Source: Allobosea sp. (GTDB lineage Bacteria; Pseudomonadota; Alphaproteobacteria; Rhizobiales; Beijerinckiaceae). Taken from it: a stretch of DNA of 53,113 bases. Below the pieces are notes generated by a model, which made no database searches, was not told the DNA's origin, and was given only the letters and a program-made list of their open reading frames with translations. The stretch covers positions 1 to 53,113 of the forward strand of contig NZ_JAFKFX010000050.1 of assembly GCF_017308075.1 (NCBI RefSeq), in the 5' to 3' direction. A program made the position numbers and the translations under genes. The stretch's first letter is position 1, and each line of letters begins with the position of its first letter. This document shows, one piece after another, positions 31,849 to 48,582 of the stretch.

Positions 31849-31892
31849 TGTCAATGGCTTTTCGCCACGCGGCCCGCTAGGATGCCCCGGCC

Positions 31893-32558
31893 ATGTCAAC
31901 CACCCTGAAGCACCGGACGCTGTCCTCGGCGATCGTCGACCAGCTCCGCCAAGCCATCCTCGACGGCAGCTATCCGGCCGGCTCGCAATTGCGGCAGGAC
32001 GCACTGGCGCAAGCCTATGCGGTCAGCCGCATCCCGGTGCGCGAGGCGCTGTTCCAGCTAGAGGCGGAAGGTTTCGTGAAGATCGTGCCGCACAAGGGCG
32101 CGATCGTCTCGGGGCTGTCGCTCGACGAGATCAACGACGTCTTCGAGCTGCGCAAACTGCTCGAGCCCCGGCTCTTGGCGAGCTCGATCCCGGCGATGAC
32201 GGCTGCCGATTTCGAGGCGGTGGCGGGCATGGAGGCCGCCTTCGAGGAGGCGATGTCGGCCGGCGACATCAGCCGCTGGGGCCTGCTCAACGCGGATTTC
32301 CATCTCGCGCTCTATGCCCGCGCCACCCAGCCGCGCACGCTGTCGATCGTCGCGGGTCTCTTGCAGACCAGCGACCGCTATACGCGGCTGCAGCTCCAGC
32401 GCGGCTCCTCGATCGAGCGGGCGCAGGCCGAGCACAATGAGCTGATCAGCCTGTGCCGCAATGGGCAGCTAGCCGAGGCCGAGCGCTTGCTGGTCGACCA
32501 TATCGAGATGGTCCGGCGCGACCTGGTTGAGTTTCTGGAGGCTGGCGGGAAAGAGTGA
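31893..32558 (+). CDS. GntR-family transcriptional regulator, FCD subfamily
   Basis: This 221-residue regulator has a winged-helix domain (residues about 10-75, PVREALFQLEAEGFVKIVPH as recognition region) and a C-terminal FCD domain (about 85-210) with metal-binding Asp/His residues (NADFHLALY, EHNELI, DHIEMVRRDL). FCD-GntR proteins sense carboxylic acids. It is divergent from the TRAP operon with a 22-bp palindrome between the starts, which fits local control of that transporter. ATG 31893 follows AGGA. Confidence 0.93.
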   Translation: MSTTLKHRTLSSAIVDQLRQAILDGSYPAGSQLRQDALAQAYAVSRIPVREALFQLEAEGFVKIVPHKGAIVSGLSLDEINDVFELRKLLEPRLLASSIPAMTAADFEAVAGMEAAFEEAMSAGDISRWGLLNADFHLALYARATQPRTLSIVAGLLQTSDRYTRLQLQRGSSIERAQAEHNELISLCRNGQLAEAERLLVDHIEMVRRDLVEFLEAGGKE

Positions 32559-32738: not shown

Positions 32739-33818
32739 TCAGGTCAGCTTGCCGCGGGCCGCCACCGGCAATTCGCCGATCAGCTTGTCGCCGCGCACCG
32801 TCACCAGACGGTCGACCATGTTGACGACGACGCAGACATGGTTCGGCACGATGCGCACGACCTCGCCGACCTTGGGCCGCTCATTGCTGGCGGAAAGGTC
32901 GAGGAAGCCGTGCTCCTCGGCGAATTTGGCGATCTTCGCCGAAGGGTACTCGAGGATCAGCCCATGCCCGTCGAGGCCGCCAATATCGCTGGTCAGCGTC
33001 TTCGAGCCGGAATCGAGGATGCCACGCTCGGGCGCCGCACGGCTGACCACCGTCGCATAGACCGTCAATGCGCATTCTTCGAGCGAGGCGACCCCGGCTG
33101 CGATCTGCATGCGGTCATTGAAGATCGAGGTACCGGCGCGGTGCTCGGTCGCGCCCTTGAGCTTGCCGATATTGGGCACGTTGGGCGAGCCGCCGGTCGA
33201 GACCATCCCCGCCTCGAGCCCGGCCTCGCGCAGACCGGCATTGGCGGTGTCGAGGAAAACCTGCGTGCGCTCCCAGCCATCCTCGGGCGGGTACATCATG
33301 AAGCCGGCGAAGGTCAGCCCCTTGGAGCCAGCGATAAGCTTGGCGAGCTCGACCGCCTCGCCCGGCGTGACGACGCCGGCGCGCTCGCGGCCGGTGTCGC
33401 ATTCGACCACCACTTCGAGATCGCGCCCGGCGATCTCGGCCGCCTTGGGCAGGCCGGCGATGGTGACCGGATTGTCGGCGGCGACGATCATGCGCACCCG
33501 GCGCTGAAGCGCGCCGAGACGCCCGAGCTTCTCCTCGCCGAGGATGTTGTAGGAGATCAGGATGTCGTCGATGCCGCCATCGGCCATGACCTCGGCCTCG
33601 CCGAGCTTCTGGCAGGTGATGCCGCGCGCGCCGGCCGCGATCTGCAGCCGCGCCAGCTCGGGCGATTTATGAGTCTTGATGTGCGGGCGGTTGGCGATGC
33701 CCGCGGCATCGCAGGCCGCCTGGAGCTTGGCGATGTTCGCCTCGACCTTGTCGAGGTCGATGACGACGGCCGGCGTACCGTAGACGCGGGCGATTTCCTC
33801 GGCGAGCGCAGTCGTCAT
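32739..33818 (-). CDS. D-serine dehydratase/D-threonine aldolase-like PLP enzyme (fold III)
   Basis: This 359-residue enzyme of the alanine-racemase-like fold has the PLP Lys in RPHIKTHKSPE (K48) and an N-terminal barrel followed by a C-terminal beta domain with NHVCVVVN (H327, C329). In the DSD1/D-TA group a metal is held by His-x-Cys in eukaryotic-type D-serine dehydratase and His-x-Asp in D-threonine aldolase, so HVC points to the dehydratase type. It would turn D-serine or a related D-3-hydroxy amino acid into 2-aminoacrylate. The start overlaps the RidA stop by ATGA, which links it to an enzyme that destroys 2-aminoacrylate. Confidence 0.88.
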   Translation of the reverse strand: MTTALAEEIARVYGTPAVVIDLDKVEANIAKLQAACDAAGIANRPHIKTHKSPELARLQIAAGARGITCQKLGEAEVMADGGIDDILISYNILGEEKLGRLGALQRRVRMIVAADNPVTIAGLPKAAEIAGRDLEVVVECDTGRERAGVVTPGEAVELAKLIAGSKGLTFAGFMMYPPEDGWERTQVFLDTANAGLREAGLEAGMVSTGGSPNVPNIGKLKGATEHRAGTSIFNDRMQIAAGVASLEECALTVYATVVSRAAPERGILDSGSKTLTSDIGGLDGHGLILEYPSAKIAKFAEEHGFLDLSASNERPKVGEVVRIVPNHVCVVVNMVDRLVTVRGDKLIGELPVAARGKLT

Positions 33819-34273
33819 GGCAGTACCTTGATGATGACTTCGATCTCGACCGTCATGCGGTTCGGCAGCGAGCCCATGCCGACGGCCGAGCGGGCATGGC
33901 GGCCATTCTCGCCGAGCACGGCGACGAACAAGTCCGAGCAGCCATTGATGACCTTGGGGTGATCCGAGAAATCAGGCGCGGCATTGACCATGCCGAGTAG
34001 CTTGACGACCTCGACCTTGTCGAGCGAGCCGGCCGCCTTCTTCATCGCCGCGAGCAGGCCGAGCCCGGTCTGCTTGGCATGCTCATAGGCTTCATCGATC
34101 GAGACGTCGGCGCCGACCTTGCCGGTCGGATAGGTGCCGTCGGCGCGCTTGGGCCCCTGGCCCGAGAGATAGACCATGTCGCCGACCCGCTTGAAGCTGA
34201 CATAGGTCGCGACCGGGCTCGGCACGTCCGGCAGGCTCAATCCGAGATCCTTGAGCTTCTGATCAGCACTCAT
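33815..34273 (-). CDS. RidA/YjgF family protein
   Basis: This 152-residue protein belongs to the RidA family (Rid deaminases hydrolyse enamine/imine intermediates such as 2-aminoacrylate). It has PVATYVSFKRVGDMVYLSGQ, the conserved LGMVNAAPDF block, and NGCSDLFVAVLGENGRHARS. The RidA-type Arg appears at GRHARSAVG. ATG 34273 has the ribosome-binding GGAGGAA at ideal spacing, while the ATG at 34279 sits almost on top of it. Its coupling to the PLP enzyme and nearness to diaminopropionate ammonia-lyase fit a role in clearing aminoacrylate, though it is of the longer YjgH/RidA-like subtype and its activity is not certain. Confidence 0.9.
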   Translation of the reverse strand: MSADQKLKDLGLSLPDVPSPVATYVSFKRVGDMVYLSGQGPKRADGTYPTGKVGADVSIDEAYEHAKQTGLGLLAAMKKAAGSLDKVEVVKLLGMVNAAPDFSDHPKVINGCSDLFVAVLGENGRHARSAVGMGSLPNRMTVEIEVIIKVLP

Positions 34274-34319
34274 TCGCATTTCCTCCAGGCAGATTCCGGC
34301 GCCGTCTCGGCACCGGCGA

Positions 34320-34826
34320 TCAAAGTTCGCGCGTCATGTAGCGGGCGTCATCGTCATAGCTCGCCAGCTTGCGATCAAGCGATGCGTCATGCGTCAGGCG
34401 AAAGCCATGCCGCTGCCAGAAGCCGGCCGAGCGGTTGACCGCGATCAACGCCATCCGGCGAAGCGCGGCCTTGCGCGCCTCCTCTTCCAGCAGCGCGACC
34501 ACACGCGACGCCGCGCCGCTGCCCTGCGCACGCGGCAGCAGAGCAAGATCATGGATGTAGTAGGCGTCGGCATCCGGCGGGATCGCGCCGAGCCGGCTGT
34601 TCAGCGCCGGCGCCTGCAGCAGCGGCCAGGGGTGACTGACGACATAGCCGGCGAGGCCGCCATCGGCGCCGGCAAGCGACAGGCACCCGGCCGGCGACAG
34701 CACCAGCCGCTCGGCGAAGACCGCCTCGTCCTCGGGAAAGCCGGGATGGACTTCCGCCGCGACGTTCATGACGCCCGGCAGATCGGCTGGCACCATGGGG
34801 CGCCAAAGGAGAGCGGTCGCAGTCAT
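34320..34826 (-). CDS. GNAT-family N-acetyltransferase
   Basis: This 168-residue acetyltransferase has a GNAT core: DAYYIHDLALLPRAQGSGAA contains the acetyl-CoA-binding RxQGxG/A-type loop, and NRSAGFWQRHGFR the late helix. The N-terminus LLWRPMVPADLPGVMNVA is a typical beta1-alpha1. The substrate is unknown, with amines or amino acids likely. It lies 46 bases upstream of the RidA gene on the same strand, and may modify or detoxify a cluster intermediate. Confidence 0.87.
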   Translation of the reverse strand: MTATALLWRPMVPADLPGVMNVAAEVHPGFPEDEAVFAERLVLSPAGCLSLAGADGGLAGYVVSHPWPLLQAPALNSRLGAIPPDADAYYIHDLALLPRAQGSGAASRVVALLEEEARKAALRRMALIAVNRSAGFWQRHGFRLTHDASLDRKLASYDDDARYMTREL

Positions 34827-34921
34827 CGTCTTCTTCTACCCGGAACGATCCCCCGCAGGCACCACTCAGCGCCGCGCCCGGGGAAGTCGTGCCGGGTGTA
34901 GCAGAAACGTTCGGGCGGCGG

Positions 34922-36088
34922 CTACGCCGCCTCGACCTTCCTGAACTTGTTGCTGCGCTTCGGGTGCCACCAGGCGCCCTTGAGCACGACGCCCTCGGAG
35001 ACGATCTTCTTGTCGCCGATCAGATGCTCGCCGGTGACGTCGACATAGTCGAACTTGCCTTCCTTCACCGTCAGGATCGTCGCATCACCGAGCGAGCCGA
35101 CCTTGAGCGAACCATATTCCGGCCGCTTCAACGCCATGCCGGCATTCAGCGTCGAGGCGGCGACGACGTTGTTGAGGCTCATGCCCATGCAGAGGAACTT
35201 CGACATCGTGGTGACCTGGTCATAGGCCGGCCCATCGATGCAGAGCTTGTGCACGTCGGAGGAGATCACGTCCGGCTCGAAGCCGTTGGCGAGCATGGCG
35301 CGCGTGGTCTTGAAGGAGAACGAGCCCTTGCCGTGGCCGATGTCGAAGATGACACCGCGCTTGCGGGCGGCGAGCACCTCTGGCTTCACCGTGCCTTGCG
35401 CGGTCGAGGGCGCGTTCGGGAACGGGCGGAAGGCGTGGGTCAGCACGTCGCCCGGCCGCAGCATGCCGATGACCTCCTCATAGGATGGCGGCGGATGGTC
35501 GATATGGCACATCAGCGGCATGCCGACCTCGTTGGCGACCTGCAGCGCGATGTTGAGCGGCACGGTGCCCGAATTGCCGGAGGCGTGCAGGCCGACGCGG
35601 ACCTTGATGCCGACGATCAGGTCGCGGTTCTTGTCGGCGACCTCGACGCAGTCGATCGGGTTCATCATCCTGAGGTCGCCGCTCTCGCCGACCATGACGC
35701 GGTGGTCGAAGCCGTAGATACCGGCATGCGAGACATGGAGATAGGCGAGGATGCGCGCCTGGCTCTTCTCGATGACATGCTTGCGGAAGCCGGCCCAGTT
35801 GCCGGGACCGGCCGAGCCGGTATCGACCGAGGTGGTGACGCCGGAAACCCGGCAGAATTCGTCGGCATCGATGCCGAGCGAAGTGCCGCCCCAGTAGACA
35901 TGGGTGTGCAGGTCGATCAGCCCGGGCGTGACGATATAGCCGGAGACGTCGCGGATCTCCTTGGCGCCCTTCAGGTCCTTGCCGAAGCCGGAGACCTTGC
36001 CGTCGGTGAAGGCGACGTCGAGGACGCCGTCATGCTTCTGCGAGGGGTCGATGACCCGGCCGCCCTTGAGAATGAGATCGTGGGTCAT
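34922..36088 (-). CDS. Dihydroorotase-like amidohydrolase/deacetylase metallohydrolase
   Basis: This 388-residue member of the amidohydrolase superfamily belongs to a group related to Agrobacterium Atu3266 and dihydroorotase-like deacetylases. Metal residues are seen: H61 and H63 (DLHTHVYWGG), K162 as probable carboxylated Lys (VGIKVRVG), H195 or H198 (MCHIDHPP), H252 (FDIGHGKGSF) and D278 (SSDVHKL). It would hydrolyse a cyclic or N-acyl amide, ester or ureide. ATG 36088 follows GGGGAAG. It is located between the D-carbamoylase and GNAT genes. It is not a typical D-hydantoinase, since the substrate loops of that family are absent. Confidence 0.87.
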   Translation of the reverse strand: MTHDLILKGGRVIDPSQKHDGVLDVAFTDGKVSGFGKDLKGAKEIRDVSGYIVTPGLIDLHTHVYWGGTSLGIDADEFCRVSGVTTSVDTGSAGPGNWAGFRKHVIEKSQARILAYLHVSHAGIYGFDHRVMVGESGDLRMMNPIDCVEVADKNRDLIVGIKVRVGLHASGNSGTVPLNIALQVANEVGMPLMCHIDHPPPSYEEVIGMLRPGDVLTHAFRPFPNAPSTAQGTVKPEVLAARKRGVIFDIGHGKGSFSFKTTRAMLANGFEPDVISSDVHKLCIDGPAYDQVTTMSKFLCMGMSLNNVVAASTLNAGMALKRPEYGSLKVGSLGDATILTVKEGKFDYVDVTGEHLIGDKKIVSEGVVLKGAWWHPKRSNKFRKVEAA

Positions 36089-36128
36089 GCTGCTTCCCCG
36101 CCTTGGCGTTCATTGTCGAAATTCATCT

Positions 36129-36224
36129 CGTCATCCCGCCCCTAGCAAAGCAGGAATGTGGAATCCACGGCCGTGTCTTCATCGCGAAGCCGGCTGCAAA
36201 AATCGCGGCTCTCCCGGGATGGGC
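36129..36224. repeat. CGTCATCCCG-type intergenic repeat, copy 4 (degenerate)
   Basis: The element opens with CGTCATCCCG and closes near CCCGGGATG in the 165-base gap between the amidohydrolase and D-carbamoylase genes. The interior has GCGAAGCCGGCT and AATCGCGGCT segments. The right end lacks the full TGACG, so the copy is decayed. It lies between genes that read the same way. Confidence 0.5.
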
Positions 36225-36253
36225 CCGCGACGATCCGGTGCGGGCCAGGGCGG

Positions 36254-37186
36254 TCACGCCACCGCCGCGCCCTTGCGCTCTACGATCATGCCGTAGGTCT
36301 GCGGCTCGCGGTGTTTCGCGAAGTTGAAGGTCGAGTTCTTGTAGCTCTTGCCGAGATCGAGATCGCAGCGGGCGATGACGAGCTCGTCGCCCTCGGTCAC
36401 CGCCTGCGCCACGACCTCGCCGGTCGGCGCGATGATGCAGGAGCCGCCGATCTGGTCGACACCGGCTTCGAGGCCGGCCTTGGCGACGCCGACAACCCAG
36501 GTCGCGTTCTGGTAGGCGCCGGCCTGCATGACGAGCTGGTTGTGGAAATTGCCGAGCCGGTCATGGTCGGGCGCCGGCGGGTTGTGCTTGGGCGTGTTGT
36601 AGCCGAGCACAATCATCTCGACGTCCTGGAGCCCCATGACGCGGTAGCTCTCGGGCCAGCGCCGGTCATTGCAGATCATCATGCCGAGGCGCCCGCCCAT
36701 GGTCTCCCAGACCGGCCAGCCGAGATTACCGGTCTCGAAATAGCGCTTCTCGAGATTCTGGAAGGCTGCGTCGGGGCGGTGCTCGGGATGGCCGGGCAGA
36801 TGGATCTTGCGGTATTTTCCGACGATCGCGCCGGATTTGTCGACCAGGATAGCGGTGTTGAAGCGGCGCTTGCGGCCATCCTCGAAAGCGAGCTCGGGAT
36901 AGCCGAGATGGAAGCCGATGCCGAGCTTCGCAGCTTCGGCGAAGAGAGGCGCCGTCTCGTTCGAGGGCATGGCGCTCTCGAAATAGGAGTCGATCTCGGC
37001 CTCGTCCTCCATCCACCAATGCGGGAAGAAGGCGGTCAGCGCCGCCTCCGGGAAGACGACGAGATCGCAGCCATTGGCCTTGGCCTGGCGCATCAGCGCG
37101 ATCATGCGGGTGACGGCCGAGGCGCGGCTCTCCTCGCGGTGGATCGGCCCAAGCTGGGCGGCGGCGACGGTCAGGATACGACTCAT
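36254..37186 (-). CDS. N-carbamoyl-D-amino-acid hydrolase (D-carbamoylase)
   Basis: This 310-residue nitrilase-superfamily enzyme splits N-carbamoyl-D-amino acids into D-amino acid, CO2 and ammonia. The catalytic triad aligns exactly with the well-studied Agrobacterium enzyme: E47 (FPEAAL), K127 (KYRKIHLPGHPEHRPD) and C172 (MMICNDRRWPE). HPEHRPDAAFQNLEKRYFET is the D-carbamoylase-specific block. The start overlaps the stop of the ammonia-lyase gene by ATGA. No separate hydantoinase of known type is in the window, so natural substrate may be a ureido acid other than an industrial hydantoin product. Confidence 0.93.
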   Translation of the reverse strand: MSRILTVAAAQLGPIHREESRASAVTRMIALMRQAKANGCDLVVFPEAALTAFFPHWWMEDEAEIDSYFESAMPSNETAPLFAEAAKLGIGFHLGYPELAFEDGRKRRFNTAILVDKSGAIVGKYRKIHLPGHPEHRPDAAFQNLEKRYFETGNLGWPVWETMGGRLGMMICNDRRWPESYRVMGLQDVEMIVLGYNTPKHNPPAPDHDRLGNFHNQLVMQAGAYQNATWVVGVAKAGLEAGVDQIGGSCIIAPTGEVVAQAVTEGDELVIARCDLDLGKSYKNSTFNFAKHREPQTYGMIVERKGAAVA

Positions 37187-38322
37187 TTCAGCACGTCCTC
37201 GGCGGAGCGGCCGACAATGCCGCGATAGACTTCCGGATCGGTCGCGCCCTCGGTGCCGTAGCAGAGCACGCGGGACGAGGTGTCGAGGCCAAGCGCGCTG
37301 CGCAAGGCCGGATCGCGCGCCGCCTTGAACAGACCGGCGAGCCCGGCGACGCCGGATTCTCCGCCGACCACGCCGAGCGTCGCGAGTTGGCGCATCGCAT
37401 CGGCGGCGGCCGCGTCGCGCACCGTCATGAAGGCGTCGGCGCCGGGCTGGAGGATGCGCCAGGCCAGGATCGAGGGCTCACCGCAGGCAAGGCCGGCCAT
37501 GATCGTCTCGAGATCGCCGCCGACCGCCGTGACCGCCCCGGCCTTGGCCGATTCGAACAGGCAGGCGGCATTCTCCGGCTCGACCACCACGAAGATCGGC
37601 CGCGCCGCGCCATGGCGCTCCCAGCTATCGGAGAGCACGGCCGCAGCGATGCCGCCGACGCCGCCCTGGACGAAGACATGGGTCGGCTGCGCGCCTTGCG
37701 TCTCGACCTCGTTGGACAGGACCGAATAGCCCTGCATCACGTCCTTCGGCAGCTGCTCATAGCCGGGCCAGGAGGTATCGGAGACGATCTGCCAGCCATT
37801 GGCCTCGGCTGCCGCCGCACAGGCGCGGACGCTGTCGTCGTAATTGCGGCCCTCGCGGACGACGGTCGCGCCATAGGAGCGGATCGCCTCCGCCCTGCCC
37901 TCGCTGACGTTCTCGTGGATGTAGATCACCGCCTTGACGCCGGCACGCCTTGCGCCCCAGGCGACCGAGCGGCCGTGATTGCCATCGGTCGCGCAGGCGA
38001 CGGTCAGCCCCTCCCGACCACGCGCCGCGACCAGCCGGTCGACGGCATAGGCGCCGCCGAGGGCCTTGAAGCTGCGCAGGCCGAAGCGGCCGCCCTCGTC
38101 CTTGTAGAGCACCTGGCCGAGATCGAGCGCGTCGGCGATGGCCGGAAGATCGCGCAATGGCGTCGGCGCATAACCGTCCCATGCGGCGATCGCCGCATGG
38201 GCGCTGCGGCCCTTGTCGCGGGAGAGGATGGTGCGCAGATCGTCGCCATAGGGCGCGTTCCGGTCGAGCCGCGGATTGAGGATGAAGTCCGGACCGCGGC
38301 TATCTGAATTGGCGTCTGTCAT
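37183..38322 (-). CDS. dpaL: Diaminopropionate ammonia-lyase
   Basis: This 379-residue PLP (fold II) enzyme converts D- or L-2,3-diaminopropionate to pyruvate and two ammonia. The PLP Lys is K86 (GLRSFKALGGAYAV), followed by CATDGNHGRSVAWGARRAG, SDTSWPGYEQLPKDVMQGYS and VGGVGGIAAAVLSD, all characteristic of DpaL (E. coli YgeX). ATG 38322 is preferred over a TTG 36 bases upstream. It overlaps the D-carbamoylase start by ATGA, tying the two reactions together. The importer genes lie 32 bases upstream. The reaction proceeds through 2-aminoacrylate, which matches the nearby RidA gene. Confidence 0.94.
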   Translation of the reverse strand: MTDANSDSRGPDFILNPRLDRNAPYGDDLRTILSRDKGRSAHAAIAAWDGYAPTPLRDLPAIADALDLGQVLYKDEGGRFGLRSFKALGGAYAVDRLVAARGREGLTVACATDGNHGRSVAWGARRAGVKAVIYIHENVSEGRAEAIRSYGATVVREGRNYDDSVRACAAAAEANGWQIVSDTSWPGYEQLPKDVMQGYSVLSNEVETQGAQPTHVFVQGGVGGIAAAVLSDSWERHGAARPIFVVVEPENAACLFESAKAGAVTAVGGDLETIMAGLACGEPSILAWRILQPGADAFMTVRDAAAADAMRQLATLGVVGGESGVAGLAGLFKAARDPALRSALGLDTSSRVLCYGTEGATDPEVYRGIVGRSAEDVLK

Positions 38323-38354
38323 GGGCTGATCGTCGACCTCGCTCGGCCCCCTGG

Positions 38355-39385
38355 TCAAGCGTCGGCGAGCGCAGGCACGGCCTGCTTCAGGAGCGGGTTA
38401 TCCTCCGCCGGCAGATCGTGCAGATGGCAGGCGGCGACATGGCCCTGCGCCATTGGGCGCAAAGCCGGCTCTTCCGTACGGCAGCGATCGAAGACGTAGG
38501 GACAGCGCGTGTTGAAGCGGCAGCCCTTGGGCGGATTGATCGGGCTCGGCACGTCGCCCTTGAGCAGGATGCGCTCGCGCCGGATTTTTGGATCGGGCAC
38601 CGGCACGGCAGAGAGCAGAGCCACCGTATAGGGGTGGCGCGGCGCGCCGAAGATCTGCTCCTTGGTGCCCATCTCGACGATCTTGCCGAGATACATCACC
38701 GCGACGCGGTGGGTCATGTGCTCGACGATGGCGAGGTCGTGGCTGATGAAGAGCAGGGCCAGGCCAAGTTCCTTCTGCAGATCGCAGAGCAGGTTGACGA
38801 TCTGCGCCTTGACCGAGACGTCGAGCGCCGAGACCGCCTCGTCGCAGATGATCAATTCCGGCTCGGCCGCGAGCGCCCGGGCGATGCCGATGCGCTGACG
38901 CTGGCCGCCGGAGAATTCGTGCGGCCAGCGATTCACTGCGTCTCGCGGCAGGCCGACCTTATCCATCAGCGCCATGGTGCGCTCGGTGACCGCCTCCTTG
39001 CCCTGGACGATGCCGAAATTGGTGATCGGCTCGGCGAGGATGTCGCGGACGCGCATGCGCGGGTTGAGGCTGGAGAACGGGTCCTGGAACACGACCTGTA
39101 CACGCTGGCGCAGCGGCCGGAGCTTGCCGGTGGAAAGCTGGTCGATGCGCTGGCCGTCGAGCACCACCTCGCCGGAGGTGATATCGAACAGGCGCAGGAT
39201 CGCCTTGCCGACGGTCGACTTGCCGCAGCCGGATTCGCCGACCAGCGACAGCGTCTCGCCCTTGGCGATCTCGAAGGAGATGCCGTCGACGGCGTAGACA
39301 TTCGCCGTGATGCCCGAGAGCAGCCCGCCGCGGATCGGGTAGTGCTTCTTGAGGTCGTTGACCTGGAGGATGGGCTGGGTCGTGC

Positions 39386-39389
<4 letters not shown>
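38355..39389 (-). CDS. Peptide-type ABC importer ATP-binding protein (DppF/OppF), second system
   Basis: This 344-residue ATPase has Walker [11 protein letters not shown]-loop [16 protein letters not shown], signature FSGGQRQR, Walker [14 protein letters not shown] (Ala in place of Pro) and the [14 protein letters not shown] cysteine extension. Its start overlaps the DppD-type stop by ATGA. It is the last of five importer genes reading minus, directly before dpaL, so the transporter most likely feeds that pathway. Confidence 0.94.
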
Positions 39390-40375
<986 letters not shown>

Positions 40376-40377
40376 GG

Positions 40378-41295
40378 TCAGAGCCTTTTCGCCATGCGCG
40401 GATCGAGCGCGTCGCGCAGGCCGTCGCCGAGCATGTTCACGGCAAGGACGGTCAGCGACAGGAAGATGGCGGGGAAGAGGATGATGTGGGGCTTGACCTG
40501 CCAGAGCGCACGGCCCTCGGCCATGATGTTGCCCCAGGACGGCGTCGCCGGCGGCACGCCCGCCCCGATGAAGGACAGGATCGCCTCGACGATCATCGCG
40601 CTGGCGCAGATATAGGTCGCCTGCACGCTCATCGGCGCCAGCGTATTGGGCAGGATATGGCGGAAGACGATCATCGGCGTGCGCGTGCCGGCGGCGATCG
40701 CCGCATCGACATAGGGCTGCTCGCGCAGCGACAGCACGACGCCGCGCACGAGGCGCGCAACGCGCGGGATCTCGGCGATGGTGATGGCGATGATGACGTT
40801 CTGGACCGAGCCGCGGGTCAGCGCCATCAGGGCGATGGCGAGCAGGATCGGCGGGATCGACATCATGCCGTCGATGACGCGCATGATGATGCCGTCCGAC
40901 CAGCGCACGAAGCCGGAGAACAGGCCGATGACCAGGCCTGCGATCGAGGCCAGGATCGCGACGCTGAAGCCGACAAGCAGCGAGACCCGCGCGCCATACA
41001 TGACGCGCGAATAGATGTCGCGCCCCAGCATGTCGGTGCCGAACCAGTAGAGCTCGGAGGGCACGCGAGTGCGCCGCGCGGTCGAGATCGCGGTCGGATC
41101 GACGGTGCCGAGCCAGGGCGCGAACAGGGCGATGAAGAACATGATCAGCAGCAGGACGCCGCCGATCGCGATCGAAGGGTTCTTGCGCAGGAAGCCGGTG
41201 AAGCCGGTCAGCGGCTTCCGGGCCTTCAGCACGTCGGGAAGTTCAGGAGCGACCGCGAGGTCGCCCGGAACCGGGGCGGGATGCTGCACGGTCAA
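40378..41295 (-). CDS. Peptide-type ABC importer permease (DppC/OppC), second system
   Basis: This 305-residue permease has [20 protein letters not shown] and an EAA loop [20 protein letters not shown]. The start is not ATG: TTG 41295 overlaps the upstream stop (TTGA) and has GAGGA at good spacing, while GTG 41289 is the alternative. Both lie before a ~35-residue cytoplasmic tail. A near-minimal gap to the ATPase gene marks one operon. Confidence 0.92.
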
Positions 41296-42233
41296 TAGCG
41301 TATCCTCGGATCGACGAGGGTGTAGATCAGGTCGATGGCCAGGTTCACCAGCACATAGACGAAGGAGAAGATCAGCACGACGCCCTGGATGACGGGGTAG
41401 TCGCGGCGCAGGATCGCATCGAGCGTGAGGCGTCCGAGCCCGGGAATGGCGAAGACGCTCTCCGTCACCACGGCGCCGCCGATCAGCAGCGCGACGCCGA
41501 TGCCGATGATGGTGATGATCGGCACCGCCGCATTCTTCAGCGCGTGCAGGAAGAGGATGCTGTTCTGCGCAACGCCCTTGGAGCGGGCGGTGCGGATATA
41601 GTCCTGCTGCAGCACGTCGAGCATGGTCGCGCGGGTGATGCGGGCGATCAGCGCGACATAGACCAGGCCGAGCGTGACCGCCGGCAGGATCAGGTTCTGG
41701 AACCAGGGCCAGAGCCCTTGCGAAATTGGCGTGTAGCCCTGCACCGGCACCCAGTCGAGCTTGAGCGCAAAGACATAGGCGAGCAGGTAGCCGACGACGA
41801 AGACCGGCACCGAAAAGCCGAACACGGCGAAGGCGACGACGGCGCGGTCGATCCAGGTCCCGGCCTTCCAGGCAGCGACGACGCCGAGCGGCACGGCGAC
41901 GCTGACGGCCAGGATCAGCGTCAGCACCATCAGCGAGAGTGTCGGCTCGATGCGCTGCGCGATCAGCTGCGTCACCGGCAGCGACGTGAAGATCGAGGTG
42001 CCGAGATCACCCTGGAGCACCCGGAAGAACCATTCGCCGAAGCGGACGAGATAAGGCCGGTCCAGGCCCAGGCTGGCGCGGATGCGTTCGACATCGGCCG
42101 GCGAGGCCTGGTCGCCCGCGATGATGGCGGCGGGGTCGCCCGGTGCGATGTAGAGAAGCGAAAAGACGAACAGCGCCACGAAGGCCATGACGGGTATCGT
42201 CGTGATGATGCGTCTTACGATAAAAGCGAGCAT
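41292..42233 (-). CDS. Peptide-type ABC importer permease (DppB/OppB), second system
   Basis: This 313-residue permease opens MLAFIVRRIITTIPVMAFVA with the IAPGDPAAIIAG motif, and has the EAA loop RTARSKGVAQNSILFLHALK. ATG 42233 follows AAAGG and is preferred over ATG 42266, which would add unconserved residues. It overlaps the DppC-type gene. The binding-protein gene lies upstream across a structured 124-base gap. Confidence 0.93.
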   Translation of the reverse strand: MLAFIVRRIITTIPVMAFVALFVFSLLYIAPGDPAAIIAGDQASPADVERIRASLGLDRPYLVRFGEWFFRVLQGDLGTSIFTSLPVTQLIAQRIEPTLSLMVLTLILAVSVAVPLGVVAAWKAGTWIDRAVVAFAVFGFSVPVFVVGYLLAYVFALKLDWVPVQGYTPISQGLWPWFQNLILPAVTLGLVYVALIARITRATMLDVLQQDYIRTARSKGVAQNSILFLHALKNAAVPIITIIGIGVALLIGGAVVTESVFAIPGLGRLTLDAILRRDYPVIQGVVLIFSFVYVLVNLAIDLIYTLVDPRIRY

Positions 42234-42300
42234 CCGCAGCCTTTTGCTGGAAAGTGGGCGCCGCATCGTTTCGGACTGGAACAATCCGAAGCCGCGCGAC

Positions 42301-42345
42301 GGGCGTCGTTGAAAAGCCGACGCCCAGGCAGCGGCCCGGGCGTCG
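42301..42345 (-). other. Mutually exclusive stem-loops between binding-protein and permease genes
   Basis: GGGCGTCG occurs at 42301-42308 and 42338-42345, and its complement CGACGCCC lies between at 42318-42325. The middle copy can pair with either flank, giving alternative hairpins in the mRNA, one followed by CTTTT. This lies just after the binding-protein stop and before the DppB start, where partial termination or mRNA protection commonly sets subunit ratios. Confidence 0.65.
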
Positions 42346-42357
42346 ATCTCATCCGTG

Positions 42358-43956
42358 TCAGGCCTTGGCGACGTTCCAGAAGAACGGCAGCGGGCCGCTG
42401 GTCACGCCGGTGACGTTCTTCCGCCAGGCCTGATAGCCGAGATAGAAGCCGGTCGGCGCGAAGACGACGTTCTCGACGGCGGCCTTGTTGAGACGGGCCA
42501 TCGCGGCCTTTTCCTCGGCCATGTCCTTGGCGTTGAACCAGTTGGTGACCTCGGTCTCGACCGCCGGCACATCCGGCCAGCCGAACCAGGCCTTGTCGCC
42601 ATTGGCGCGGATCGCGGTGTAGGAGGACGGGTTGAGGCAGTCCGCACCGGCATGCCAGGTGTGGAACATGCTCCAGCCGCCCTGCCCCGGCGGGGTCTTC
42701 TGGGCGCGCCGCGCCCCGACCGTGCCCCAATCGGTGGCGACGAACTCGACCTTCATGCCGATGCTCTTCAACAGCTCGGCGGTGACGTCGCCCATCGACT
42801 TGGTCGCCGACATGTCCTGCGCGACCACGCAGATCACCGGCTCGCCCTTATAGCCGGCCTCGGCCAGGAGCTTCTTGGCGGCCTCGATGTTCTTCATCTT
42901 CAGCATCGCCCCACCCTCTTCGGTGTAGAGCGGCGTGCCGGGGGTGAAGAAGCCGGGCAGCGGTTTCCAGAGCTTGTCGTCGTCGCCGACGATCGAGCGC
43001 ATATAGTCTTCCTGGTTCATCGCCGTGAGGACCGCCTGGCGCACCTTCACATTGTTGAAGGGCGGATGCAGGTGGTTCATGCGGAAGGACCCGATATTGC
43101 CGAGCGGGTCGCCGATATCGACATTGATGTTGGCGTTGCTCTTGAGCACCGGGACGAGATCGGAGAGCGGGGTCTCCCACCAGTCGACCTCGCCGTTCTG
43201 CAGCGCGGCGGCGGCCGTCGCGGCGTCGGGCATGATCACCCATTCGATGCGGTCCACGAGCATCTTCTTGCCGCCGGCGAGCCAGTCCGCCGGCTCCGAG
43301 CGCGGCACATAGTCGGCGAACTTCTCGAACACCGCCTTGGCACCGGGGACCCATTCGCCGCGGGCGAATTTCATCGGGCCCGAGCCGACATATTCGGTGA
43401 TCTGCGTGAAGGGATCGGTCTTGGCGATGCGCTCCGGCATGATGAAGGAGCAGGGCGCATTGTTCTTGGCCAGCGCCAGCAGCATCTTCGGATAGGGCTG
43501 TTTCAGCACCCATTTCCAGGTGCGGTCGTCGACGGCGGTCAGCTCGTTCTCGATCGCCCGGATCATCAGGCCCATCGGGTCGCGGGCCTGCCAGCGCTTT
43601 AGGCTCTGCACCACGTCCTTGGCGAGGACGGGGGTGCCGTCATGGAATTTGAGGCCGGGACGGAGCTTGAAGGTCCAGGTCAGGCCGTCGGCGGAGACCT
43701 CCTCGGCCTCGACCATCTGGCGCTGCGGCTGGAACTTGGAATCGATGCCGTAGAGCGTGTCCCAGACCAGCGCCGCCGCGTTGCGGACGACGTATTGCGT
43801 TCCCCAGATCGGATCGAAATTGGCGAGGTTGGCTTGCGGCACGAAGCGCAGGGTCTTGGCGGCGGCTCCCTGAGAAAGGGCCGGCATCGCCAGCCCGCCG
43901 GAAGCTGCAAGCACGCCCGTCCCTGCGGCAGACTTCAGAAAACTTCTGCGGTCCAT
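42358..43956 (-). CDS. ABC substrate-binding protein, SBP_bac_5 family, second system
   Basis: This 532-residue periplasmic protein has a Tat-type signal (MDRRSFLKSAAGTGVLAASG, then LAMPALSQG) and family-5 binding-protein features (LRFVPQANLANFDPIWGTQY, WTFKLRPGLKFHDGTPVLAK, VGSGPMKFARGEW). ATG 43956 follows GGGGAGA. It is the first gene of the second importer operon. The Tat signal suggests folding before export. Ligand inferred from context: an N-acylated or N-carbamoylated amino acid or small peptide. Confidence 0.93.
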   Translation of the reverse strand: MDRRSFLKSAAGTGVLAASGGLAMPALSQGAAAKTLRFVPQANLANFDPIWGTQYVVRNAAALVWDTLYGIDSKFQPQRQMVEAEEVSADGLTWTFKLRPGLKFHDGTPVLAKDVVQSLKRWQARDPMGLMIRAIENELTAVDDRTWKWVLKQPYPKMLLALAKNNAPCSFIMPERIAKTDPFTQITEYVGSGPMKFARGEWVPGAKAVFEKFADYVPRSEPADWLAGGKKMLVDRIEWVIMPDAATAAAALQNGEVDWWETPLSDLVPVLKSNANINVDIGDPLGNIGSFRMNHLHPPFNNVKVRQAVLTAMNQEDYMRSIVGDDDKLWKPLPGFFTPGTPLYTEEGGAMLKMKNIEAAKKLLAEAGYKGEPVICVVAQDMSATKSMGDVTAELLKSIGMKVEFVATDWGTVGARRAQKTPPGQGGWSMFHTWHAGADCLNPSSYTAIRANGDKAWFGWPDVPAVETEVTNWFNAKDMAEEKAAMARLNKAAVENVVFAPTGFYLGYQAWRKNVTGVTSGPLPFFWNVAKA

Positions 43957-44091
43957 CAATCTCTCCCCTGAAACGGCCACCTCTTGCGGGCGACCTTGGG
44001 GCGAGTGTGGGCGGAAAAATCCGCTCTGACAACACGCTCCGCGAACCGTCCGCGACGGCAGAAGAGCTTGCAGGGTTCGTGCCAAAAGACA

Positions 44092-44119
44092 GATGTCGGC
44101 GCCTCGCGGAGCCGACATC
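44092..44119 (-). terminator. Probable intrinsic terminator after the amidase gene
   Basis: GATGTCGGC and GCCGACATC form a perfect 9-bp stem with a 10-base loop. On the minus strand it is followed by TGTCTTTTG. It lies after the amidase stop and before the binding-protein start, so the carbamoylase-amidase pair may be a separate transcript from the importer-dpaL operon. Confidence 0.6.
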
Positions 44120-44173
44120 ACGGAATGATGCGTGAACCGGAGGCTATCCGGCAAAAAATTGCGCGCACCCTAC

Positions 44174-45586
44174 CTAAATCGTTTCAATCGGCGCATCGAC
44201 ACGCGGGAAGGGTCGCAAGGCCTCGAAAGCCGCTGCCGCCTGCAACACCCGATAATCGCTTCCGTAAGGTCCGACGATCTGCAAGCCAGCGGGCAACCCG
44301 GCCCTGGTCAGGCCGCAAGGCACCGAGGCCGCGGGGGCCTGCGTGATGTTGAACGGGTAGGTGAACGGGGTCCAGCGGGTCCAGTCCTCGCCATAGCCGC
44401 CATGGGCCGGCGTGTTGCGGCCGACGGCGAAGGCGGGCAGCGGCAGGGTCGGGGTCAGCAGCAGATCGAAGCGTGCATGAAATTGCGCCATCTGCAGAGC
44501 CAGCGCGTTGCGCCGATTGAGCAGGACATCGACATAGGTGGCACCGTCGATGCGCTCGCCGGCCTCCGCCACCGCGACGAGGCCCGGGTCCATCCGCGCC
44601 CTCGCCTCGGGGCCGGCACTGCGCAAAGCGAGGGCCGCGCCGGCCGACCAGAGCGTCATCAGCGTGTCGAGCGGATCGGCAAAACCCGGATCGACCTCCT
44701 CGACGCGGGCGCCGAGCTCGCGGAAGGCCAGAGCGGCATCGCGCGTCAGCGCCGCAATCTCGGGATCGACCGGCACATCGCCGCCGAGCGTCGCCGACCA
44801 GGCGATCCGCAGCCCCCGCACCCCGGCATCGAGGCCCGCGGTGAAATCGGGCGGCGCATCGGTCATCGCCGTCATGTCGCGCTCGTCCGGCTGGCCGATG
44901 GCGTTCATCGCCAGCGCGGCATCGCGAACCGTGCGGGTCAGCGGGCCGAGATGGGCGAGAAAGCCCATGGTCGAGACCGGCCAGGCCGGGACGCGGCCAT
45001 AAGTCGGCTTCAATCCGAAAACCCCGGTGAAGGCGGCGGGGATGCGCACCGAGCCGGCCCCGTCGGTGCCGAGATGGATGCAGCCGAGATTGAGCGCCGC
45101 CGCGGCTGCGGCTCCGGAGGACGAGCCGCCCGGCCCGGTCGCGACATCCCAGGGATTGCGGGTGATGCCCGTAAGCGGCGAATCACCGACGCCCTTCCAG
45201 CCATATTCCGGCATCGTCGTCTTGCCGAGGAAGACGCAGCCGGCCTCGCGCAGCCGCGCCACCGCCGGAGAATCGGCTGTGAAAGGCGCATCGGACGCCA
45301 CCGCCGAGCCGCGTCGCATCGGCCAGCCGGCGACACCGAGATTGTCCTTGATCGTCACCGGCACGCCGTCGAGGGGCCCGAGCGGCGCGCCCTTCAGCCA
45401 GCGGGCCTCGGCGTCCTGCGCCATGGCGAGCGGCACCTTGTCGTCGCGGACGACGAAGGCGTTGACCTGCGGCTCGAAGCGCTCGATGCGCGCCAGCGCA
45501 TCCTTGGCGACCTCGAGCGGCGAGAGCTCGCGGGAGGCGTAGAGCGGCGCGAGCTCGGCGGCGGAAAGCGAGGCAATGGCGGTCAT
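44174..45586 (-). CDS. Amidase (amidase-signature family)
   Basis: This 470-residue enzyme has the Ser-cisSer-Lys triad: K80 (VTIKDNLGVAG), S155 (GPGGSSSGAAAA) and S179 (GTDGAGSVRIPAAFTGVFGL). The 24-residue spacing of the two serines is that of the family. It hydrolyses a carboxamide, ureide or N-acyl bond, as in GatA-like, AtzF-like or peptide amidases. ATG 45586 was chosen. ATG 45598 is possible, and neither has a strong ribosome-binding site. It follows the M20 carbamoylase gene across a repeat-containing 166-base gap. Confidence 0.9.
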   Translation of the reverse strand: MTAIASLSAAELAPLYASRELSPLEVAKDALARIERFEPQVNAFVVRDDKVPLAMAQDAEARWLKGAPLGPLDGVPVTIKDNLGVAGWPMRRGSAVASDAPFTADSPAVARLREAGCVFLGKTTMPEYGWKGVGDSPLTGITRNPWDVATGPGGSSSGAAAAAALNLGCIHLGTDGAGSVRIPAAFTGVFGLKPTYGRVPAWPVSTMGFLAHLGPLTRTVRDAALAMNAIGQPDERDMTAMTDAPPDFTAGLDAGVRGLRIAWSATLGGDVPVDPEIAALTRDAALAFRELGARVEEVDPGFADPLDTLMTLWSAGAALALRSAGPEARARMDPGLVAVAEAGERIDGATYVDVLLNRRNALALQMAQFHARFDLLLTPTLPLPAFAVGRNTPAHGGYGEDWTRWTPFTYPFNITQAPAASVPCGLTRAGLPAGLQIVGPYGSDYRVLQAAAAFEALRPFPRVDAPIETI

Positions 45587-45621
45587 GACGGCACCCATTC
45601 GGAAGATGAGATCGGAACTCA

Positions 45622-45730
45622 CCGTCATCCCGGGCAAGCGGCTTCAGCCGCGCAGACCCGGAATCCATCGCAGGGCTCCGCGCCCTAAGACGGATCCCGA
45701 CGCTCCGCTTCGCTGCGTCCGGGATGATGG
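45622..45730. repeat. CGTCATCCCGG-type intergenic repeat, copy 5
   Basis: CCGTCATCCCGGGC at the left and GTCCGGGATGATGG at the right are complementary apart from one base. The middle contains GGAATCCATC and GGATCCCGA segments. It lies between the M20 carbamoylase and amidase genes, both on the minus strand. Confidence 0.7.
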
Positions 45731-45752
45731 AGAGTGGTCGTGAACACTCTGG

Positions 45753-46985
45753 CTATCGGGCATTCGCCGCGCGCCAGGCGGCGCTGAGCAGGACATTGGC
45801 GCCGGCGACCATGTCCTCGTCGGTGCTGAGCTCGGCCGGATTGTGCGAGAGGCCGCCGATCGAGGGGATGAAGATCATCGCCGTCGGGCAGAGCCGCGAC
45901 ATCATCTGGGCGTCGTGGCCGGCCCCGGAAATCATCCGGCGGATCGGCAGCCCGAACTCGGCGGCGCTCGCCTCGACGCTGGCGATCAGCTCCTCGGCGA
46001 AGGGCGTCGCCGGAAAGCGGGCGAGATCGCGGAAGCTGATCGCGATGTCGTCGCGCTCCGACAATTCGGCGCAGAACTTGCGGACCGCCGCCTCAGCCTC
46101 GGCCAATGGCGCGTCCAGCGGGTTGCGCAGGTCGAGCGTCATCACCACCGTCTCGGGCACGACGTTGACATTGCCGGGCTGGACGCGAATGACGCCGCAA
46201 TTGGCGAGCTGTCCGGGGATCGTCCTGGTCAGCTCATTGGCGAAGATGTTGATCCTGGCGGCTGCGAGGCCGGGGTCCCGGCGATAGCGCATCGGCGTGG
46301 TGCCGGCATGGCTGGGCCGCCCTGTCAGGGTCAGTTCGAGCCAGCAGATCCCCTGGATGCCGGTGACCGCGCCGAGACCGCCGCCCTCGCTCTCCAGGAT
46401 CGGGCCCTGCTCGATATGCAGTTCGAGATAGGCATGCGCCGGCAGGAAGCCGGGCTGTTCCTGACCGTGATAGCCGATGCGGCCTAGCTCGGCGCCGAGC
46501 ACGGCGCCGTCGGCGTCCTTCTCGGCATGGGCTGCCTCGACGCTCATGCCCCCTGCCCAGACATAGGAGCCGAGCATGTCCGGATGGAAGCGCGCGCCCT
46601 CCTCATTGGTGAAGGCGATCACCGCCATGTCGCGCCTCGGCTGCAGGCCGGCATCGCGCAGGGCGGCAAGCACCTCCAGCCCCGCGATCACGCCGAGCGC
46701 GCCGTCGAAGCGCCCGCCGGTGCCAACCGTGTCGATATGCGAGCCCATCACCACAGCCGGGCCGTCCTGCTGCCCCTTCAGGATGCCGACGATGTTGCCG
46801 ATGGCGTCGACCTTCACCGTCAGGCCGAGCGCCTGCATCTGGCCGACCAGCCAGTCGCGCCCCTGCTTGTCCTCATCGCTCAGAGCGAGGCGTCGGCAAC
46901 CGCCCTCCGGCGTCGCGCCGATGCGCGAGAGCGCCGCCAGCCGCGACACCAGTCGCTCCCCATCGATCCGCAGGTTGGTGCTCAT
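45753..46985 (-). CDS. M20 amidohydrolase: N-carbamoyl-L-amino-acid hydrolase/allantoate amidohydrolase type
   Basis: This 410-residue enzyme is of the HyuC/AllC/beta-ureidopropionase group of the M20 fold. Metal and catalytic residues seen are H83 (GSHIDTVGTGGRFDGALG), D94, E128/E129 (FTNEEGARFHP), H190 (ELHIEQGP) and the late His in SGAGHDAQMM. Members remove carbamoyl groups from N-carbamoyl-L-amino acids, allantoate or beta-ureidopropionate with CO2 and ammonia release. ATG 46985 follows GGAGCG. It starts the long minus-strand series that continues with amidase, importer, dpaL and D-carbamoylase, and is divergent from a MATE pump. Confidence 0.92.
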   Translation of the reverse strand: MSTNLRIDGERLVSRLAALSRIGATPEGGCRRLALSDEDKQGRDWLVGQMQALGLTVKVDAIGNIVGILKGQQDGPAVVMGSHIDTVGTGGRFDGALGVIAGLEVLAALRDAGLQPRRDMAVIAFTNEEGARFHPDMLGSYVWAGGMSVEAAHAEKDADGAVLGAELGRIGYHGQEQPGFLPAHAYLELHIEQGPILESEGGGLGAVTGIQGICWLELTLTGRPSHAGTTPMRYRRDPGLAAARINIFANELTRTIPGQLANCGVIRVQPGNVNVVPETVVMTLDLRNPLDAPLAEAEAAVRKFCAELSERDDIAISFRDLARFPATPFAEELIASVEASAAEFGLPIRRMISGAGHDAQMMSRLCPTAMIFIPSIGGLSHNPAELSTDEDMVAGANVLLSAAWRAANAR

Positions 46986-47169: not shown

Positions 47170-48582
47170 ATGTCACAGATCGCGCTTCACATGCGGCCGG
47201 CGAGCCCCTGGCTCACCGAGGTCAAGGCCATGCTGGCGTTGAGCTGGCCGATGGTGCTGACCAATGTCGCACAGACCGCGATGACGGCGACCGACGTCAT
47301 CATGATGGGCCATCTCGGGCCCGATGCGCTGGCCGCGGGCGCGCTCGCCACCAATCTCTACATGGCCGTGCTGATCTTCGGCATCGGCGTGATGGCGGCA
47401 GTCGCGCCGATGGTCGCGATCGAGCTCGGACGGAACCGGCATTCGGTTCGCGACGTGCGCCGCACCGTGCGCCAGGGTTTCTGGGTTGCGGCGACCCTGG
47501 CGGGGCCGATGTGGCTCTTCCTCTGGCAGGCCGAAGCGATCCTCAAGACGATGGGCCAGAACCCGGCATTGGCGGAGGCGGCTGGCTCCTATCTGCACAC
47601 GCTGCAATGGGGTCTGCTGCCTTTCTACATCTATCTCGTCCTGCGCGGCTTTCTCGCTGCTCTGCAGCGGCCGTTCTGGGTCTTCGTGACCGTGCTCTTC
47701 GCGGTCGTCTTCAACGCCTTCGCCAACTGGGTGCTGATGTTCGGGCGGCTCGGCTTCCCGGCGCTCGGCCTGCCGGGCTCGGGGCTGGCGACCTCGCTGG
47801 CCTCGACCCTGATGTTCGCCGGCCTCGCGCTCGTGGTCTCGCTCGACCGGCGCTTCCGGCGCTACCGCCTGTTCGGGCGCTTCTGGCGAGCGGACTGGAG
47901 CCGCTATCGCGCCTTCTGGCGCATGGGCCTGCCGATCGGCACGACGGTGAGCTTCGAGGTCTGGATCTTCAACGGCGCCGCCTTCCTGATGGGCCTGCTC
48001 GGCCCGACCTCGCTCGCCGCCCATGCGATCGCGATCCAGATCGCCTCGCTGTGCTTCATGGTGCCGATGGGCATCGGCCAGGCCGGAACGGTCAGGGTCG
48101 GGCATGCCTACGGTGCCGGCGACAGGGAGGGCATCGCCCGGGCCGGCGCCACTGCGCTCGTGCTGGCGACCGCTTTCATGTGCTTCACCGCGCTCCTGAT
48201 GCTGCTGATCCCGCACTGGCTGGTGGTGCCGTTCCTCGACGCCAGCAAGCCGCGCGCGGCCGAGGTGGCGCAGCTTGCCATGCTGTTCCTGTTCTATGCG
48301 GCGATCTTCCAGATCGTCGACGGCATCCAGGTGGTCGGCGTCTCGATCCTGCGCGGCCTGCGCGACACGCGCGTGCCGATGTTCTTCGCCGGCCTCGGCT
48401 ATTGGGGCATCGGCCTGCCGCTCTCGGCGGCACTCGGCTTCCTGACGCCGCTCGCCGGCGTCGGCATCTGGATCGGGCTCGCCACCGGTCTTGCAATCGT
48501 CGCCGTGCTGATGCTGACGCGCTGGTTCGCCCGCGAACGGCTTGGCCTGATCCGGAGGCCGGCGGCCACCGACGCCGCCTAG
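47170..48582 (+). CDS. MATE-family multidrug/metabolite efflux transporter (NorM-like)
   Basis: This 470-residue, 12-helix antiporter has the MATE hallmarks: ALSWPMVLTNVAQTAMTATD with VIMMGHLGPDALAAGALATN, LRGFLAALQRP, a second repeat with VPMGIGQAGTVRVGHAYGAG, and GIQVVGVSILRGLRDTRVPM. It exports cationic drugs or metabolites using sodium or protons. ATG 47170 is preceded by AAGG inside a hairpin. It is divergent from the catabolic series and may export an intermediate or inhibitor, though this is inference. Confidence 0.93.
   Translation: MSQIALHMRPASPWLTEVKAMLALSWPMVLTNVAQTAMTATDVIMMGHLGPDALAAGALATNLYMAVLIFGIGVMAAVAPMVAIELGRNRHSVRDVRRTVRQGFWVAATLAGPMWLFLWQAEAILKTMGQNPALAEAAGSYLHTLQWGLLPFYIYLVLRGFLAALQRPFWVFVTVLFAVVFNAFANWVLMFGRLGFPALGLPGSGLATSLASTLMFAGLALVVSLDRRFRRYRLFGRFWRADWSRYRAFWRMGLPIGTTVSFEVWIFNGAAFLMGLLGPTSLAAHAIAIQIASLCFMVPMGIGQAGTVRVGHAYGAGDREGIARAGATALVLATAFMCFTALLMLLIPHWLVVPFLDASKPRAAEVAQLAMLFLFYAAIFQIVDGIQVVGVSILRGLRDTRVPMFFAGLGYWGIGLPLSAALGFLTPLAGVGIWIGLATGLAIVAVLMLTRWFARERLGLIRRPAATDAA

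Follow-up and report, generated by a model that had tools for sequence, protein, structure and literature searches.

The minus strand of a 53,113-nucleotide stretch of DNA from Allobosea sp. (Bosea in what follows; contig NZ_JAFKFX010000050.1, assembly GCF_017308075.1), which at its full length we call the window, carries 13 genes running from position 46985 down to 32739; the likely substrate and pathway of this gene cluster are our subject. An earlier note on this DNA had described these genes as a route from ureido or acyl derivatives of 2,3-diaminopropionate to pyruvate. All the genes that it listed on this strand were found in place, together with the ATGA overlap between dpaL (for DpaL, diaminopropionate ammonia-lyase) and a D-carbamoylase gene, and the complete E47-K127-C172 triad of the D-carbamoylase. 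In 5' to 3' order the cluster reads as follows.

45753..46985, minus strand: M20 ureidohydrolase of the hydantoinase/carbamoylase family (TIGR01879, 392.2 bits against a cut-off of 204; the longest open reading frame starts from 47171)
44174..45637, minus strand: amidase-signature amidase (NF004815, PRK06169, 617.4 bits against a cut-off of 506; PF01425)
42358..43956, minus strand: SBP_bac_5 binding protein of a putative substrate importer (PF00496, 240.5 bits; twin-arginine-type N-terminus MDRRSFLKSAAGTG)
41292..42284, minus strand: DppB-type permease (NCBIfam Opp2B/GsiC family, under the equivalog cut-offs)
40378..41295, minus strand: DppC-type permease (NCBIfam Opp4C/GsiD family, under the equivalog cut-offs)
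39386..40375, minus strand: DppD-type ATPase (PRK11022/OppD family, under the cut-offs)
38355..39515, minus strand: DppF-type ATPase (PRK11308, 413.3 bits against a cut-off of 408)
37183..38358, minus strand: DpaL, diaminopropionate ammonia-lyase (NF006058, 461.9 bits against a cut-off of 276)
36254..37186, minus strand: D-carbamoylase, hereafter DCase (429.6 bits to 8i99; 380 bits to 1fo6/1erz)
34922..36088, minus strand: PRK09237-type amidohydrolase (NF006689, 436.9 bits against a cut-off of 371; 2ogj, 196.8 bits)
34320..34826, minus strand: GNAT acetyltransferase (PF00583)
33815..34279, minus strand: RidA-like protein (PF01042/PF14588; TIGR00004, 35.2 bits, under the cut-off of 106.25)
32739..33818, minus strand: PF14031/Ala-racemase-N enzyme (189.6 bits against the 690-bit cut-off for BhcC)

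Four-base overlaps join DppB to DppC, DpaL to DCase and RidA to the PF14031 gene, and also DppF to DpaL provided that the latter uses its TTG start codon (the reading frame has an ATG 12 codons further on). The DppF open reading frame begins within DppD unless a later ATG is the start, and its true start is probably the in-frame ATG 42 codons in; the remaining intergenic gaps measure 2 to 214 bases. RidA and GNAT match at the family level only, and the relatives of the PF14031 enzyme are D-threonine aldolase, D-3-hydroxyaspartate aldolase/dehydratase and D-serine dehydratase.

The window's DpaL falls short of the TIGR03528 cut-off (319.4 against 532.25), although it passes that of NF006058. 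Its K98, D125 and D194 align, by count on the printed alignment, with K77, D120 and D189 of the E. coli enzyme (4d9g), to which we presume functional roles. The nearest named DpaL among the matches listed is that of Bosea sp. WAO (90%), and contig 45 of the source genome encodes a further DpaL of generic type. The homologous YgeX acts equally on both isomers (PMC12507026). The closest solved structures to DCase are N-carbamoyl-D-amino-acid hydrolases; besides the intact E47, K127 and C172, residues H129, R175 and R176 are kept. This Glu-Lys-Cys triad is the one named for a Pseudomonas DCase (PMC11503299), and it is invariant at 93 DCase places, one gap excepted (matches below 230 bits and translations with a stop were left out of the DCase residue counts).

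The M20 enzyme has 5thw, 5tp4, 5i4m, 4wjb and 8c46 as its nearest solved structures. Numbered from the MSTN start and mapped by count on the printed alignment, its E128, Q193, R287 and H381 correspond to Glu131, Gln196, Arg291 and His385 of 8c46, all four being kept; these are the ligand residues of that enzyme, for which no activity on N-carbamoyl-D-amino acids is reported (PMC10952681). We rejected the idea that the M20 enzyme lacks the carboxylate-binding arginine and hence takes a substrate without a carboxylate: with an offset of 6 counted on the printed chain, the Arg291 equivalent is the R of a DLR motif and not the arginine of PNSRN, and it is present in 53 of 55 M20 rows with gaps in the remaining two (translations containing a stop were left out). 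The M20s that occur with DpaL and DCase carry subfamily marks, V/I273, R350 and Q360, which differ from 8c46. Five Bosea paralogues depart from them at R350 and Q360, and four of the five at V/I273 (one has I). Position 273 is V (39) or I (9) in all 48 M20s linked to DpaL and DCase; the seven other M20 matches have I in two cases and V, R, T, H and a gap in one each. Because the ligand residues of a beta-ureidopropionase are kept within a subfamily with marks of its own, removal of a 3-ureido group by the M20 enzyme appears no less likely than action as an L-carbamoylase. The carbamoylases of both stereo preferences named in the earlier note were a reading of family names, just as its description of the set as aerobic was drawn from the genus.

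In the published reductive route, urate is converted through ureidomethyl-hydantoin (UMH), 2,3-diureidopropionate (DUPA), albizziin and diaminopropionate to pyruvate, and the 2-ureido group leaves via YgeW or UacY and the 3-ureido group via YgeY (PMC12507026); a commentary reports another proposed order of ureido removal (PMC12990295). On balance, we favour the reading that the Bosea operon would import and dismantle a ureido-substituted 2,3-diaminopropionate, the most probable candidates being (R)/D-DUPA, UMH and a mono-ureido form. So read, it would be a hydrolytic counterpart of the lower half of that route, for which E. coli employs YgeW and YgeY and C. difficile UacY and YgeY. The Dpp-type ABC importer would bring the ureido substrate into the cell and, if the substrate is cyclic, the amidohydrolase would first open the ring. 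DCase would then hydrolyse the ureido group on a D-configured C2 and the M20 enzyme that on C3, a division of labour that fits the two families provided that C2 is indeed D. Elimination of ammonia by DpaL would turn diaminopropionate into 2-aminoacrylate, whose conversion to pyruvate would be completed by RidA acting as 2-aminoacrylate deaminase. As guesses, the PRK09237-type amidohydrolase, which we take to be cog3964, may be a ring opener or a D-acylase, and the PF14031 enzyme may add D-serine-like by-products to the same pool. In the printed alignment, the amidohydrolase motifs that we presume to be metal ligands fall opposite those of 2ogj.

Conservation was examined in 61 genomes, namely the source genome plus 60 others related to it, of which 36 are congeners, in a search that a cluster without a close DpaL would escape. 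A long cluster lies beside a close DpaL in three congeners (G004, G011 and G013). The order seen in the window recurs in Bosea WAO, in two Methylobacterium metagenome-assembled genomes (MAGs) and in the Beijerinckiaceae MAG L064, GNAT being absent from the MAGs; in L063, another Beijerinckiaceae MAG, RidA and PF14031 have no match either. GNAT, with no match in L060-L064, is outside the conserved core. In a member of the same family (G072), the genes from the binding protein through the PF14031 enzyme are present, to the end of the fetched stretch. None of the Bosea clusters found lacks DCase, and the M20 gene is present in each whose fetched stretch reaches that far. Amidase and PF14031 relatives of at least 60% identity are confined to G072 and the loci from Bosea, Methylobacterium and Beijerinckiaceae. 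We also observed four loci (L042, L043, L044 and L066) with DpaL, amidohydrolase and RidA and no DCase or M20 match; the neighbours in L066 and L067 are SIS/glutamine-amidotransferase and sugar nucleotidyltransferase genes.

Beyond the close relatives, the genomes of 84,980 species were scanned with a DpaL alignment, which confirmed at least 586 candidates; the best 80 were analysed (calls at 250 bits on the same strand, DCase within 9 kb and M20 within 10 kb of DpaL). DCase and M20 occur together at 41 of these 80 loci; DCase is present without M20 at 10, M20 without DCase at three, and neither gene at the remaining 26, some of which lie on short contigs. The 51 loci with DCase belong to Alpha-, Beta- and Gammaproteobacteria. 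The near-identical order in relatives and the presence of DCase at 51 of the 80 best DpaL loci show that the DpaL-DCase arrangement goes beyond chance. In a quickly built DpaL tree with 104 rows, DCase linkage switches 13 times and is therefore spread across several clades. An RpiR-type gene stands at 35 of the 80 loci, 31 of them with DCase and M20, three with M20 alone and one with neither. Some genomes are present in two collections (L040/L065, L041/L060 and L043/L066), so that the 93 DCase, 60 DpaL-linked DCase, 48 M20 and 104 tree rows include duplicates; the two collections are not mixed in the 80-locus counts. Relatives of the binding protein (39-47% identity) lie near DpaL-DCase in L089, L095, L108, L117 and L181, and relatives of the Bosea-type importer stand beside DpaL-DCase in Alcaligenes, Rhodovibrionaceae, a Sneathiellales MAG and G076.

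The link to uric acid is most direct in three Pleomorphomonas loci (L083, L084 and L088), where a divergent RpiR gene is followed, with short gaps, by DpaL, M20, DCase, YgfK-like, XDH and SsnA-like genes. Family scans were done on the L084 proteins, to which the counterparts in L083 and L088 are 77-90% identical. The selenium-type XDH scores 870.8 bits, above the TIGR03311 cut-off of 830.45; the YgfK-like protein of 628 aa, with a ferredoxin-type domain, matches the N-terminal part of TIGR03315 with 403.7 bits, and the SsnA-like protein matches PRK07203 with 266.8 bits. Each of the three genomes has one D-hydantoinase above cut-off, elsewhere, and none has a YgeW above cut-off (best 34.5 vs 500 bits). 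A 5-kb MAG contig (L081) begins in the same way, with DpaL, M20, DCase (in two pieces) and YgfK. Among 398 Pseudomonadota genomes, G212 (L177) alone has SsnA above cut-off, and its cluster was set aside because it gave no DCase match.

Other relatives carry genes for neighbouring steps, the family scans of D-hydantoinase and YgeY having been made on the L077 and L080 proteins only. A D-hydantoinase at least 55% identical to that of L077 is found in L073, where it directly follows DCase, in L077, L096 and L097, where it lies inside the divergent operon of an ABC importer, and about 8 kb off in L109 and L131, where a hydantoin-racemase-family gene adjoins DCase. A YgeY-like protein at least 58% identical to that of L080 is found at ten loci (L078, L079, L080, L082, L085, L089, L090, L093, L095 and L126); the L080 protein scores 376.1 bits against the NF009555 cut-off of 321, and 227 against the TIGR03526 cut-off of 321.5. 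At these ten loci the YgeY-like gene comes after DpaL-M20-DCase, making three ureido-type hydrolases where two would suffice. Counted together, HyuA (at least 50%), YgeY (at least 50%), and YgfK or XDH/SsnA occur at 20 of 51 DCase-linked loci vs none of the 29 others, in a hand tally (as were the RpiR counts) of loci that are not independent and with thresholds that drop two unlinked loci, L136 (HyuA 44%) and L105 (YgeY 30%). In L103 (11185-12828) and L115 (7595-9232), DCase is missing and its place beside DpaL or M20 is taken by a UacY-like relative of D-aminoacylases (1m7j/3gip); the L103 protein was searched against structures, and its L115 counterpart is 72% identical. In C. difficile, a D-aminoacylase-type enzyme performs the 2-ureido step (PMC12507026). 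The passage from ureido-diaminopropionate through diaminopropionate to pyruvate, as the earlier note had envisaged, draws its strongest support from the Pleomorphomonas operon, and further support from the D-hydantoinase and YgeY linkage elsewhere; the parallel it saw with the E. coli ygeX/ygeW/ygeY/hyuA set, using other hydrolases, is likewise borne out by comparison.

Several observations weigh against the reading of a ureido-diaminopropionate operon in Bosea. Above cut-off, the Bosea genome has no SsnA (best 131.1 vs 455.5 bits); its best YgfK match reaches 202.4 bits, over positions 439-835 only, against a cut-off of 835.3, and no match to the XDH of L084 was found at 1e-150 (XdhD-type enzymes were not searched). 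Because these three are missing, the urate link comes from relatives and not from the window; with upper-half genes lacking and an importer present, the simplest reading is that Bosea would import DUPA, UMH or the mono-ureido form. One D-hydantoinase (HyuA) does lie above cut-off, on contig 10 (528.7 vs 393.25 bits) and unlinked to the cluster. YgeW and YgeY were not named among the cluster genes in family scans, and no genome-wide Bosea search was made for either. The Pleomorphomonas YgfK- and SsnA-like proteins are under their family cut-offs and that operon is without a hydantoinase; among 385 genomes of the class, two have a Pleomorphomonas-like XDH (40-41%), with no DpaL, DCase or M20 match in the surrounding 18-20 kb.

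The linkage itself calls for similar caution. The 80 loci were picked by similarity to a query that itself holds DCase-linked sequences. In a control sample of 397 Pseudomonadota genomes, 25 carry 36 DCase genes at 1e-60 (34 stretches were fetched, covering 35 of them, the 36th being the window's own), and DpaL lies within 7 kb of only four (G000, G072, G145 and G273, own window included) and about 10 kb from a fifth (G076); 14 of the 36 are near a D-hydantoinase-like gene of at least 38%. This sample led us to reject DCase as a strict partner of DpaL; since most control DCases are not near DpaL, DCase is a wider family with a DpaL-linked part. Four genomes of one genus (L145, L146, L148 and L149) have a DCase 72-74% identical to that of Achromobacter and no DpaL match anywhere in the genome. 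Residue 144 of the window's DCase is Asn and not the His found in 54 of 60 DpaL-linked rows, the Asn type of Bosea making up the other six, duplicates counted; His144 is a ligand contact in the Pseudomonas DCase model (PMC11503299). The gene order, whose conservation in relatives the earlier note had taken as a check, is kept for the most part, with two departures. Bosea BK604 (G013; L040, L065) has no DppD or DppF match. In Bosea G385 (L141) the amidase-to-PF14031 cluster has no dpaL between DppF and DCase, some 70 bp separating the DppF stop from the DCase start (about 7850-8050), and only the generic second DpaL is found, elsewhere in the genome. G385 is a natural test of the need for dpaL, or of its substitution by the generic second copy.

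Some of these points would equally suit general scavenging, in which a mixture of D-amino acids bearing N-carbamoyl or N-acyl groups (such as derivatives of D-serine) would be imported and DpaL, RidA and the PF14031 enzyme would convert D-serine, D-diaminopropionate and similar compounds to pyruvate, with no uric-acid connection in Bosea. DCase and PF14031 are D-directed families, G385 keeps the cluster without DpaL, and the sampled DCases are mostly distant from DpaL and often beside D-hydantoinase-like genes. We nevertheless regard scavenging as rather unlikely: it would not predict the links to YgeY, YgfK, XDH and SsnA, and at 41 of the 80 best loci DpaL-DCase goes together with one specific M20 subfamily.

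We hold it quite unlikely that the Bosea-type clusters, with their amidase, cog3964-type amidohydrolase and PF14031 enzyme, have drifted to another substrate than the widespread DpaL-M20-DCase set, such as an N-acyl-D-diaminopropionate that the amidohydrolase would open. The DpaL-amidohydrolase-RidA loci without DCase or M20, the Asn144 of the Bosea-type DCase and the narrow distribution of close amidase and PF14031 relatives would agree with such a drift, which is opposed by the retention of DCase in all Bosea clusters found, even without dpaL, and of M20 wherever the stretch reaches. A plant non-protein amino acid or derivative as substrate (L-albizziine, beta-N-oxalyl-diaminopropionate (ODAP) or willardiine-like compounds) is very improbable, even though YgeX takes both isomers (PMC12507026), a legume root nodule has yielded a Bosea strain (PMC10868267) and the amidase has no assigned role. 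None of the relatives examined connects the core with compounds of this kind; the presence of DCase implies a D centre, and the albizziin of plants has the L configuration (PMC12990295); and family scans of the cluster proteins named no oxalyl-specific enzyme. For ODAP, L-albizziine or peptides, all suggested in the earlier note, we found no positive evidence.

As to the surroundings of the cluster, an operon for a TRAP transporter (DctP, DctM, DctQ) and a DHDPS-family aldolase lies directly downstream, together with a divergently oriented GntR gene (window 27865-32558). The GntR gene (31893-32558, plus strand) was considered as regulator of the ureido cluster and rejected: tail-to-tail with that cluster and divergent from the TRAP/DHDPS operon, it probably serves the latter. 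Upstream (window 47173-51164) are long overlapping open reading frames on both strands, with no Pfam match among those tested. Promoter and terminator scans did no better than shuffles (1 vs a mean of 1.6, and 5 vs 5.8, respectively), and a plasmid search gave no record matching more than 80% of the cluster in one place.

Returning to the ureido reading, we further propose, tentatively and with somewhat less than even confidence, that DpaL-M20-DCase may serve reductive uric-acid degradation as a different lower half, one that is hydrolytic throughout and acts on D-configured intermediates. It would be joined to the upper half in Pleomorphomonas or, more often, form a free-standing module with interchangeable importers in Proteobacteria living on ureides that others release. 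The reconstruction of the reductive uric-acid pathway dates only from 2025. Among the open questions raised in the commentary are the order of ureido removal and the stereochemical configuration of the intermediates, R having been proposed (PMC12990295). With a D-specific family in place of the uncertain steps, order and stereochemistry would become directly testable with purified proteins. If the proposal is true, one branch of the industrially used D-carbamoylases would have a native task, and the use of uric-acid-derived ureides would extend to soil and water Proteobacteria.

Among known systems, the nearest is the reductive uric-acid cluster of E. coli and C. difficile, composed of XdhD-YgfM, YgfK or UacX, SsnA, HyuA, YgeW with YqeA or UacY, YgeY and YgeX. 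The resemblance lies in the ending in DpaL/YgeX, the presumed removal of two ureido groups from diaminopropionate, a hydantoinase near several relatives and the upper-half-like genes of the Pleomorphomonas operon. The difference is that a nitrilase-fold DCase (2-ureido) and a hydantoinase/carbamoylase-type M20 (3-ureido) would replace YgeW/UacY and YgeY, and that Bosea has a Dpp-type importer and no upper half. The main text of PMC12507026 mentions neither carbamoylase, nitrilase nor PF00795, and among open-licence publications we found none pairing diaminopropionate ammonia-lyase with a carbamoylase. The D-hydantoinase/D-carbamoylase operons of the industrial hydantoinase process share the DCase family and its catalytic residues, and some relatives likewise carry a D-hydantoinase and a hydantoin-racemase-family protein, but the partners of DCase are in this case DpaL and a specific M20, and not a hydantoinase only. 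With the reductive pyrimidine pathway (hydantoinase-type PydB and beta-ureidopropionase), finally, the M20 enzyme shares the ligand residues of N-carbamoyl-beta-alanine amidohydrolase (8c46), from which it is set apart by its marks V/I273, R350 and Q360 and by its DpaL-DCase context.

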